From contig NZ_LT575483.1 in the NCBI RefSeq assembly GCF_900086705.1, forward strand, positions 879,709-943,708: a stretch of DNA of 64,000 bases. The letters are read 5' to 3'. Origin of the DNA: Massilibacillus massiliensis. GTDB taxonomy: Bacteria > Bacillota > Negativicutes > FLKF01. A program made the position numbers and the translations under genes. The number at the start of each line of letters is the position of its first letter. Position 1 is the stretch's first letter. The notes under the pieces were generated by a model. The model made no database searches and had not been told where the DNA came from. It saw nothing but the letters and a program-made list of their open reading frames with translations. Positions 27,585 through 53,240 of the stretch are shown here, one piece after another.

Positions 27585-27740
27585 TCAAACCAACCCCTTA
27601 TGATATAATTTTAATCTATGTAACAGACCGCCAAAGAATATTTTGAAAATTGTTATTGCATTCTCCTTTTGGCCTATGTTATTATTTTATACAAATATAT
27701 CAATATAAGCAATGACTGGATAAGTATAAAAATAAATTCT

Positions 27741-27937
27741 TTACAGAGAGCCGATGGTGCTGTGAATCGGTAAGAATATTTTTAGAAAGCTGCCCATGAG
27801 CTGTGAGCCGAACCTTCTTGAAGTAGGCTTTACCGTAGAATCGGCGTTAACGATAGCTAAGTGAGCTTTATGCTAACTAAGGTGGTACCGCGGGAACAGT
27901 TCTCGTCCTTATTTCAAGGATGGAGAACTTTTTTTAT
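27741..27937 (+). ncRNA. T-box leader of the lrp-aminotransferase operon
   Basis: A full T-box leader. Stem I begins with AGAGAG at 27745-27750 and carries the GTAGG-type apical segment. The T-box core AAGGTGGTACCGCGG is at 27879-27893. A terminator follows (AGTTCTC and TCCTT with AAGGA and GAGAACT, then T6, 27898-27935). At the expected specifier position, GAAAGCTGCCCATGAGC holds GCT and GCC side by side (27789-27794), both alanine codons. It should sense uncharged tRNA-Ala. The rest of the 381-nt gap upstream holds only the promoter region. Confidence 0.93.
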
Positions 27938-42108: not shown

Positions 42109-42190
42109 TACTTACACCTCCCACCATATACTCACCACAGGGATTTTAGCAATGTGAATATAAGGGGCTTTCACACTAAAATAAAGTAAC

Positions 42191-42340
42191 TTTTCTTTTC
42201 GTACCTGGTCTTTTCCGGAAAGCTACGTTCCGAAGGATGAAAAATAATCGGCTTACGTTAAGAAATCCGTTTGTTTGAGCGAAGCGAGTTAAGGATTTTA
42301 GTAAACCGGTTATTTTTCAAGTAGCTTGGAGGTTTAAGGC
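42191..42340 (+). repeat. Structured repeat element, copy A
   Basis: About 150 bp shared with copy B at 43582-43729 in the opposite orientation. The core is an 18-bp stem (42239-42256 with 42301-42318; one mismatch and one G-T pair) plus an inner AATCC/GGATT stem (42264-42268 with 42293-42297). The loop sequence around GTTTGTTTGAGCGAAGC is identical in both copies. It lies 3' of tcdA. A further 10-bp hairpin GTTCTTTTGG/CCAAAAGAAC is at 42352-42377. Confidence 0.85.
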
Positions 42341-42457
42341 CTAGCTTTTTGGTTCTTTTGGGCAATGCCAAAAGAACATCTATTCGCTTATTCTTCCATT
42401 AAGATTTTTATAAGTACAAATCTAGATGCAACAGCGCCCGTTACGAGCGTTGTATGC

Positions 42458-43183
42458 CTATTTCTTTAAACGATCAAATACGATATCTTTAATGACTTCT
42501 CCGGCAATAATTAAACCTACAACAGATGGCACGAAGGCGATACTTCCCGGACAATCGGCCTGTACCATTTCACCTTGCTCATTTTTCATCATTGGAACCA
42601 ATGGTTGTTCTTTAGAATAAACGACTTTTAACGTATCAATGCCACGTTTTTTTAATTCACGGCGCATGACTTTTGCCAAAGGACAAACCGATGTTTTCTT
42701 TATATCAGCAACTTGAAACCTGGTTGGATCTAATTTATTGCCTGCACCCATGCTGCTGATCAACGGAATTTTGCGTTCCGTTGTCTGCACCGCCAAATCA
42801 ATTTTTGCGGTTACATTATCAATTGCATCCACAACATAATCTAAATCATCTTTCAAAAAATCATCTGCCATACCTGGTAAGTAAAACTCTTGCCGTACCT
42901 CGATCTTAATATCAGGTGCAATCGCAAGCACACGCTCGCGCATAACTTCTACTTTCGATTGACCGACAGTCAAAGTTGTCGCAGGAAGCTGCCGATTCAC
43001 ATTACTGATAGAAATATCATCTTTATCAACAAGCACTAAATGCCCCGCCCCAGAACGAGCCAATGCCTCTACAACAAAACTGCCAACCCCTCCGACTCCA
43101 AACACCATGACTTTACTGTTTTTAAGTTTTGTAATCCCTTCATTGCCTAATAATAATTCTGTTCTTGTTAATCTATGTTCCAT
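42458..43183 (-). CDS. tcdA: tRNA threonylcarbamoyladenosine dehydratase
   Basis: A 241-residue E1-like (ThiF fold) enzyme. VFGVGGVGSFVVEALARSGAGHLVLVDKDDISISNVNRQ binds ATP, and SSMGAGNKLDPTRFQVADIKKTSVCPLAKVMRRELKKRGI is diagnostic of TcdA/CsdL. It uses ATP to cyclise t6A at position 37 of tRNAs reading ANN codons to ct6A. AGGTGATAAGAA precedes the ATG. It lies between the two copies of the structured repeat. Confidence 0.93.
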   Translation of the reverse strand: MEHRLTRTELLLGNEGITKLKNSKVMVFGVGGVGSFVVEALARSGAGHLVLVDKDDISISNVNRQLPATTLTVGQSKVEVMRERVLAIAPDIKIEVRQEFYLPGMADDFLKDDLDYVVDAIDNVTAKIDLAVQTTERKIPLISSMGAGNKLDPTRFQVADIKKTSVCPLAKVMRRELKKRGIDTLKVVYSKEQPLVPMMKNEQGEMVQADCPGSIAFVPSVVGLIIAGEVIKDIVFDRLKK

Positions 43184-43311
43184 TTCTTATCACCTACATT
43201 ATTAAAATTACTGTATTCTTTGTCATTGTATCATAAATGTCAGCGCCAGCAAATTTCTCTCCAGCCCAATTGCCCGTTTTTTCTATAAAGTTCCCATGTG
43301 CGTTATGATTA

Positions 43312-43322
43312 CATAGTATAAT
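43312..43322 (+). promoter_or_regulatory. Candidate -10 element(s) before the small peptide gene
   Basis: A perfect TATAAT (43317-43322) overlaps CATAGTATA (43312-43320), which fits the sigma-K/sigma-E -10 CATAnnnTA. No convincing -35 is visible for either, so the sigma factor cannot be decided. Confidence 0.35.
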
Positions 43323-43364
43323 AATAGCTTCAAATCTTTATACACAAAAAAGAAGGTGAAAAAT

Positions 43365-43577
43365 TTGGAACCTTATGAAAATCCCGAACTCATTGACTGG
43401 GATGAAACAATACCCCCGAACAGTCGAGCTTTTGGCTTTTTACCCATTTTTGCACTTGGCTCATTATCAAGCGCCACTCTGCTAAGCGTGAGCGGTGGAA
43501 ATTTCAATTGTAAACCTCGCTGGCGAGATTACTATACTTGTTCACCCAGATATATCTGTTATCCAAGGCCTTACTAA
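43365..43577 (+). CDS. Small peptide with Cys/Tyr/Arg-rich tail, unknown
   Basis: A 70-residue product starting at TTG, with AGAAGG 8 nt upstream. An acidic Pro-containing head (EPYENPELIDWDETIPPNSRA) leads to a small hydrophobic stretch (FGFLPIFALGSLSSATLLSVSGG). The tail, FNCKPRWRDYYTCSPRYICYPRPY, has three Cys spaced by 9 and 5 residues. I recognise no family. It could be a spore-coat or surface peptide, or a modified-peptide precursor; no maturation gene is visible. The good ribosome site and Arg/Tyr/Cys bias support a real gene. Confidence 0.55.
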   Translation: MEPYENPELIDWDETIPPNSRAFGFLPIFALGSLSSATLLSVSGGNFNCKPRWRDYYTCSPRYICYPRPY

Positions 43578-43581
43578 TTAG

Positions 43582-43729
43582 CATGGCCCTCCAGAATACT
43601 TGAAAAAAGACCAACTTACTAAAATCCTAAACGTGCTTCGCTCAAACAAACGGATTTCTTAACGTAAGTTGATCTTTTTTCATCTTTCGGAACGCATCTT
43701 GCCAGAAAGTCCGGAGAACGAAAACAAAA
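43582..43729 (-). repeat. Structured repeat element, copy B
   Basis: The inverted copy of element A. Its core stem (43602-43619 with 43664-43681) pairs at all 18 positions with one G-T. Compared with A, four base pairs have changed on both sides at once, so pairing is kept while sequence is not. It lies just 3' of the small peptide gene and convergent to ybaK. Confidence 0.85.
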
Positions 43730-52982: not shown

Positions 52983-52999
52983 CATATAAATTATGAAAT

Positions 53000-53128
53000 A
53001 AGCAAATCTCCTTCTCAACTTAGGAAGGCAATGGAATTTCTCCCATTCCCCTGTGAATGAAATTTCATTCAGGCGCAATACCTTAGGCAATCAGCCCTTA
53101 GACATTTTTGCACGGAGCACATATGAAA
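53000..53128 (-). promoter_or_regulatory. Riboswitch-like leader of the cofactor operon
   Basis: The 337-nt gap upstream of the cofactor operon folds into several helices on the minus strand: GCTCC with GGAG as a likely closing stem, an 8-bp GAATGAAA/TTTCATTC hairpin (53056-53071), and AATGG/CCATT (about 53030-53047). Purine-rich conserved-looking stretches (GTCTAAGGG, GCCTAAGG) join them. With the terminator just downstream, this is the layout of a ligand-sensing riboswitch. Position suggests the molybdenum/tungsten cofactor family, but I could not match its consensus with certainty. Confidence 0.55.
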
Positions 53129-53240
53129 TTATAAACTATCACTTTATTCAAATGCGAAAATGCCTATTTCTATTGAAATCTAGAAGTTTTATAGAACAAA
53201 AACAGTCACTCAGATGGATGTTACACGTACACGAATAAAA

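Follow-up and report, generated by a model that had tools for sequence, protein, structure and literature searches.

The window, by which we mean the whole 64,000-nt stretch analyzed (C6:879709–943708 of the Massilibacillus massiliensis genome, G000, which totals 4,000,026 bases), contains two hairpin elements, A and B, on either side of a minus-strand gene for a ThiF-family (tcdA-like) protein (42458..43183; PF00899, E 1.8e-44), which is included for context only. The main imperfect hairpin of the elements, termed H2, spans 42207..42341 on the plus strand in copy A (model match C6:921915–922049, 156.5 bits), where it is also defined by alignment and folding and lies on the G.U-tolerant strand, and 43579..43713 on the minus strand in copy B (C6:923287–923421, 122.2 bits), which likewise folds. 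Both elements had been reported in the initial annotation; they were located at those positions by sequence and matched by a covariance model, and the loop GTTTGTTTGAGCGAAGC is, as claimed, identical in the two. The apex of each hairpin is a GC-GAA-GC mini-hairpin with a GNA loop, read from the sequence at 42279..42285 (+) in copy A and at 43635..43641 (−) in copy B. Copy A is preceded by a 5′ lead, CGTACCT (42200..42206, +), similar by eye to the CGTWCC-like sequence in many other copies and genera, and farther upstream by a decayed remnant (GGGRCTGTCGCAT..., 42164..42182, +) of a 5′ hairpin module that precedes many copies in this genome. Beyond H2 it continues into a 3′ module, H3 (42342..42377, +), with TAGC and a T run ahead of the hairpin GTTCTTTTGG/CCAAAAGAAC. 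Copy B ends without the 3′ module (43571..43578, −) and abuts the stop codon of a 73-codon ORF (43356–43577). The elements are real, but the length of about 150 bp first assigned to them falls short for copy A, whose conserved unit reaches ~42377 through the 3′ hairpin. Together the copies form a 155-nt inverted repeat with 79% complementarity, and they are decayed members of one dispersed repeat family. The window also has a T-box leader (27703–27913) and a Moco riboswitch (52992–53129), both identified as Rfam matches.

In folding comparisons with shuffled sequences, copies A and B gave z-scores of −3.96 and −4.34 as RNA and −2.41 and −3.60 as DNA. Their opposite strands gave similar z-scores (RNA −4.01 and −3.84; DNA −2.80 and −3.27), with a weaker RNA energy (−31 vs −45 kcal/mol). 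Non-Watson–Crick cells in the alignment of H2 on the given strand were G.U or U.G in 62 cases and A.C or C.A in 6 (26 and 6 without column pairs 56–95 and 69–83); this excess suggests that the folding strand is the one corresponding to copy A plus. At both A and B, the favored strand is antisense to the gene that the initial annotation had named beside the element.

The conserved unit comprises H2 (~135 nt) and H3 (~35 nt), arranged 5′ to 3′ as the lead CGTWCC, H2 with its GC-GNA-GC apex, GGCC-TAG, a pyrimidine run, and the hairpin H3; the exception is genus g10, in which the outer stem is longer and the H3 module was not seen. Across 45 pairs in 30 distinct copies, 98.4% of cells hold standard pairs. 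Changes on both sides occur in 19 of the 45 pairs and account for 87 cells, vs a shuffled mean of 25.0, in an alignment whose copies form subtypes by stem sequence, so that these are not counts of independent events. None of 500 shuffles reached any of five covariation measures, and shifting the pair partner by 1 to 3 columns destroyed the signal. The double changes first noticed in the outer stem of A and B are part of this genome-wide pattern, which also bears out the earlier suggestion that selection, or palindrome-preserving copying, keeps the fold. The outer pair of the apical mini-hairpin itself varies in the 30 copies (G-C 22, A-U 5, G-U 3). The apical loop is GAA in 51 of the 57 copies read from this genome, and among the matches listed from named genomes the middle base of GNA is A in 62, C in 38, T in 26, and G in 8. 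In one copy (L087, 1865–2000), the hairpin base and the apical part above it have opposite orientations.

A BLASTN search with copy A returned at least 40 matches in its own genome (the best 40 of 85 candidates scored), the weakest with an E value of 5.4e-35. A covariance-model search, as the initial annotation had proposed, was made with a model built from 30 own-genome copies and found at least 72 copies in the 4.0-Mb genome at E 0.002 or better, with stems that stay paired; at least 50 of them are near full length (≥140 bits). The two outcomes that the initial annotation had named as refuting it, an absence of other copies and stems that fail to pair, were clearly not observed. The search scored 150 of 2981 first-look candidates, so more copies may exist than were counted. 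It produced 116 rows, and the 72 copies are those that remained after 44 were removed: 2 echoes on the opposite strand above the E 0.002 line, and 42 rows below that line, made up of echoes and four weak matches. Within the class, model matches occur in 16 of 60 genomes including its own, i.e., in 15 of the 59 others, one of which (G037) has 45. The exact motif was present in 6 of 199 genomes drawn from the phylum, its own included; either the family is patchy in the phylum or the exact motif is too strict.

The 3′ tail contains a second set of covarying elements. In 54 of 75 modules, taken from its own genome, the class, and a few named-genome loci, the GNN that follows TA or TT recurs as its complement in the H3 loop or at its edge (shuffled controls: mean 22.7, maximum 35 of 5000), and 18 of 28 distinct combinations do so, vs a shuffled mean of 6.4 and a maximum of 14. 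The named genomes provided 56 distinct modules, and 53 with a second stem were used; the first stem reaches at least 5 bp in 29 of these, compared with a shuffled mean of 8.3 and a maximum of 17 of 1000. Its variants include CTTGAY/RTCAAG in many Bacteroidota, TCGCC/GGCGA in many Burkholderiales, and GGGAC/GTCCC in Luteimonas. The tail thus shows two stems in the crossing order of an H-type pseudoknot, the first through covariation and the second through pairing. Because covariation links the first stem to the loop of the second across groups, the H3 tail is best read as a predicted H-type pseudoknot. Copy A is likewise predicted to form one, on the basis of first-stem covariation in other copies, from a first-stem remnant in which GCU would pair with GGC in the hairpin loop. 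As regards a possible terminator role, one of the options in the initial annotation, about five T residues in a row start five bases past the base of H2, but the predicted tail pseudoknot uses these residues as its loop 1; among the copies viewed, the tail hairpin is not followed by a T run.

Telomerase RNA and ENE elements contain triple-helix H-type pseudoknots in which a pyrimidine loop 1 lies opposite an A-rich second stem. The H3 tail resembles these by prediction only. When its pyrimidine loop was set against the second-stem purine strand in parallel register in 52 modules, the match was 310 (shuffled mean 259, maximum 278 of 2000), a value that comes from about five distinct loop/stem combinations in which C moves in step with G and that is nearly equaled by a reversed-loop control (304). 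A major-groove triple helix in the tail would need such C/G tracking, and it is kept as a lead.

Upstream of the lead, a 5′ hairpin motif was found with two or fewer mismatches in 38 of 50 full own-genome copies and in 11 of 50 controls. Terminal inverted repeats (GGGRCTGTCGCA) around these copies, such as a MITE would have, had looked convincing by eye and were set aside when the right end failed a simple control: the right end-like motif occurs in 20 of 50 copies (control 25) and both ends in 18 of 50. GGGRCTGTCGCA is kept only as a 5′ hairpin module. No target duplication was found at the sites compared between relatives. A further long structured module lies upstream in 23 of the 24 copies viewed and contains GGACAGAT or a close variant. 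In examples such as L007, L017, and L024 this module begins near GGACAGAT and finishes near CTATCTTCGTACTAGTTTATAAG, and it is often joined by a hairpin with a TATTCAC..GTGAATA apex and a freely varying stem; these three loci have no Rfam match to E 1. Several other arrangements were observed. At two contig starts of G026 (L151 and L153), units follow 5S rRNA genes with a repeat resembling GCCGGTGAGGG...CACCGGGTGGCAGTAG in between; the tails of three own-genome copies (C6 1717113, 1677801, and 1306106) are interrupted at GGCTAGTACC by a different insert, in one case a short palindromic form; and at L079 and L081 palindromic units give ORFs with the words SERSEF and DTKDTKK, of a type that we take to be common in mis-annotated proteins.

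Own-genome copies are absent from a 935-kb arc (3.77–3.99 and 0–0.70 Mb), a gap not reproduced in any of 20000 random placements. The arc includes the GC-skew switch taken as the terminus; sampled loci alone were used to place both origin and terminus. Of the full copies, 33 of 50 are oriented with the leading strand (p 0.03), as are 44 of all 72 copies (p 0.08). Gene context was counted for 66 copies (the first 68 of the 72, with 2 skipped), using plain ORFs of at least 80 codons and excluding by construction any ORF that overlaps a unit by more than 40 nt, so that the count is silent on units inside genes. The neighboring ORFs were same/same in 28 cases and convergent in 21; 15 copies had an opposite/opposite context, and the raw count of divergent contexts was 2. 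In seven rows the downstream ORF is an IS110 transposase. All but two of the copies (64 of 66) lie on the 3′ side of at least one neighboring ORF. A position 3′ of the neighboring gene with the same polarity, as initially described, holds for A and B, but it is no rule across the 66 copies.

Where units occur in arrays, they alternate. Arrays picked by eye in two class genomes (G013 and G029) contain 11 adjacent pairs, of which 7 are head-to-head, 4 tail-to-tail, and none same-way, and each pair joins two subtypes in alternation. The named-genome loci gave 11 pairs, 9 of them inverted (7 head-to-head and 2 tail-to-tail) and 2 same-way. Comparisons between relatives showed that unit sites turn over, by loss at least. 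At the places matching four G037 units in 133 kb, the congeneric genome G027 has no complete unit, and two of the four hold what we read as truncated units. Of three sites compared between G037 and G045 (97–99% identical), one is shared, one lacks a unit, and one carries a different unit. At one locus compared between G026 and G008, a hairpin is lost in each genome, but from a different unit. Given the truncated units in G027 and the hairpin losses in G026 and G008, much of the site difference may be loss. The cleanest filled/empty pair (G037 vs G009) could just as well have arisen if the palindrome was deleted between short repeats of GGC, and no clean insertion junction or pre-insertion site was found in G037/G045/G027/G009 or in G026/G008/G044.

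Beyond the class, the apical pattern was found in at least 117 stretches of named genomes. The carriers include Bacteroidota, beta-, gamma-, and desulfo-lineages (Pseudomonadota being among the groups), Fusobacterium, Lachnospiraceae, Selenomonas, Nitrospirales, Gastranaerophilales, one Magasanikbacteria MAG, and others; many of them are MAGs, in which single contigs may be misbinned. Among the 134 motif matches listed, 122 had room to fold, and 98 of these apices lie inside at least 25 enclosing pairs, compared with 58 of 365 control places; the remaining 24 are not in a hairpin predicted to be long, whereas 16% of control places are. The tail pattern follows 3′ of the apex in 53 of 113 listed matches and was found upstream in 1 and at random places in 3. 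No plasmid or phage had a blastn match to an own-genome copy; a Variovorax copy matches one plasmid record, and the motif is present in 6 viral contigs.

No transposase or other linked gene emerged when 1860 ORFs from the 117 named loci were clustered, which yielded as shared genes only generic ones and ORFs lying over the units, and one weak Y1 match. Y1_Tnp matches occur in 46 of the 60 class genomes (its own included), with none in G037, and 6 of 19 named unit-bearing genomes lack one. The model detected no unit in 30 Y1 loci from the class, which were mostly IS200-like and partly from unit-free genomes, and neither the model nor the motif detected one in 10 Y1 regions from class genomes that carry units. 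Among named genomes with units, 30 Y1 loci contained two weak relaxed-motif hairpins (L401 and L402). With neither linkage to the units nor co-occurrence with them, a RAYT was set aside as the mover. A transposon of the IS110 family (PF01548, E 3.6e-34; ~1.54 kb) occupies the same position in H3 in all seven inserted own-genome copies (L378–L384; C6 3208717, 3625878, 1251165, 2022484, 1392098, 1867025, and 3022350), and the inserts show slight sequence variants. It is possible that the H3 tail is a natural target of an IS110 bridge-RNA recombinase; IS621 and other IS110 members are described as targeting REPs in the excerpted text of PMC1525189.

The units resemble REP/BIME/REPIN elements in being dispersed many-copy hairpins with single-strand polarity, in forming alternating inverted arrays of two subtypes, and in serving as an IS110-family target. 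They differ in size, REPs being 20–40 nt and these units 135–190 nt with a pseudoknotted 3′ tail, and the RAYT-flanked arrangement of REPs was not seen in the Y1 loci examined, the weak L401 and L402 apart. With size and RAYT linkage both unlike those of REPs, the units are not filed as REP/BIME, although their behavior is REP-like. A Bacteroidota TnpA-REP subclass is flanked by "atypical secondary structures," in the words excerpted from PMC6006769, and these structures could be such units. The palindromic repeats bcr1 (Bacillus cereus group), ERIC, and YPAL (100–170 bp) are alike in size, folding, and tens to hundreds of copies; the excerpt of PMC2267715 lists them for single groups, and the comparison is of descriptions and not of sequences. 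CGTC-tagged palindromic repeats likewise occur in several phyla and as dimers with no dedicated transposase known, but have stems of 8–9 bp and loops of 4–5 nt, as given in part of PMC3733652. Integron attC arrays run one way behind cassette genes, whereas arrays of these units alternate. IS200/IS605 elements show a strong insertion bias to the lagging-strand template; the bias of these units, with 33 of 50 full copies and 44 of all 72 oriented with the leading strand, is weak.

Skipping-rope RNA (RF02924) has a long hairpin. It is also comparable to the units in being a bacterial RNA family with a pseudoknot (excerpt of PMC7779021); none of the loci scanned matched RF02924 at its gathering score, nor did it appear in E-value scans of L006, L007, L017, and L024. 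At the gathering cut-off, no Rfam family covered the element in the window, in 13 class loci, or in 18 named loci, and a scan of L006 to E 10 gave weak chance-level matches (e.g., mir-556, 19 bits vs a cut-off of 84). Literature searches by motif letters returned unrelated papers only, and those by topic returned no description of these units. The best description of the units is as a new superfamily among palindromic repeats, one whose tail is unusual and whose spread is very wide.

We favor, with modest confidence, the view that this is a dispersed non-autonomous mobile repeat acting as a folded single strand. Among the options in the initial annotation, a small mobile element is the best supported of four, given the dispersed copies, the alternating arrays, and the sites that differ between relatives; a 3′-UTR RNA would agree with where most copies lie, though not with the mixture of their orientations. 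Mobility explains the units best but is not proved, and weighing the G027 remnants lowered our confidence in it. We infer that the sites are explained by transposition, and not merely by recombination copying and loss, and that an enzyme acting in trans reads the fold. An intact unit would consist of a long GNA-capped hairpin with fixed internal loops followed by the pseudoknotted 3′ tail; the enzyme would recognize the tip, internal loops, and tail on one strand, presented as single-stranded DNA at replication or as an RNA copy, and would copy or move the unit, and the units would become targets for other transposons. The stems would covary because their sequence is free as long as pairing holds, and units would accumulate on the 3′ side of genes because selection would remove those inserted between divergent promoters.

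The same features can be viewed differently. A functional structured RNA, with the hairpin and pseudoknot tail serving as a 3′-end stabilizer, sponge, or ribonucleoprotein scaffold, is a possible but less probable explanation. It would draw on the one-strand G.U tolerance, the predicted H-type pseudoknot whose loop C positions track G positions in the second-stem purine strand, the location of 64 of 66 copies 3′ of a neighboring ORF, and the excess of same/same over opposite/opposite contexts (28 vs 15). In its details, transcription would come from neighboring genes or from own promoters, with recombination spreading copies and selection on the RNA keeping them, and we doubt this version similarly: orientation to genes is mixed, every second array unit is inverted, congeners carry units at different sites, Rfam gave nothing at the gathering cut-off and only chance-level matches below it, and the triplex register comes from about five combinations with a control at 304. 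A replication-linked ssDNA signal (a protein-binding hairpin, nucleoid, or gyrase site) spread by selection and not by mobility is improbable. The GC-GNA-GC tip, with any N, fits the sequence rule for DNA mini-hairpins of extraordinary stability (Hirao 1994; Yoshizawa 1997; as cited in the excerpt of PMC6479982), and the copy-free arc at the presumed terminus and the leading-strand excess (33/50, p 0.03; 44/72, p 0.08) would suit such a signal; the strand bias is nevertheless weak and may follow gene direction, origin and terminus were set from sampled loci only, sites differ between relatives, and the subtypes and composite modules within one genome resemble element families. That the units are true REP elements mobilized by a RAYT/TnpA-REP transposase is very improbable given the lack of Y1_Tnp in G037 despite its 45 model matches, its lack in 6 of 19 named unit-bearing genomes, and Y1 loci without flanking units save the weak L401 and L402, even if dispersed palindromes, head-to-head and tail-to-tail arrays, and IS110 insertion are REP-like and the excerpted TnpA-REP subclass with atypical flanking structures (PMC6006769) could carry such units. 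The family might also be a SINE-like, bacteria-wide small RNA with a GNA-tipped hairpin and a triple-helix pseudoknot tail, inserted as RNA or ssDNA by an enzyme, which we consider rather unlikely; it is equally doubtful that such a SINE-like family has spread through many phyla, hidden so far among spurious ORFs.

Most palindromic repeats are known from individual groups, and here one architecture of tip and pseudoknot tail, the latter as predicted, spans phyla. As far as the literature was searched, an architecture common to Bacteroidota, Pseudomonadota, Bacillota, Fusobacteria, and others has not been described. If a dedicated enzyme reads the fold, the units would represent a new mobility system of very wide reach; if the RNA reading is true, they would be a very widespread unannotated structured RNA. 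The units may explain many spurious ORFs, and they may be natural targets of bridge-RNA recombinases of the IS110 type.
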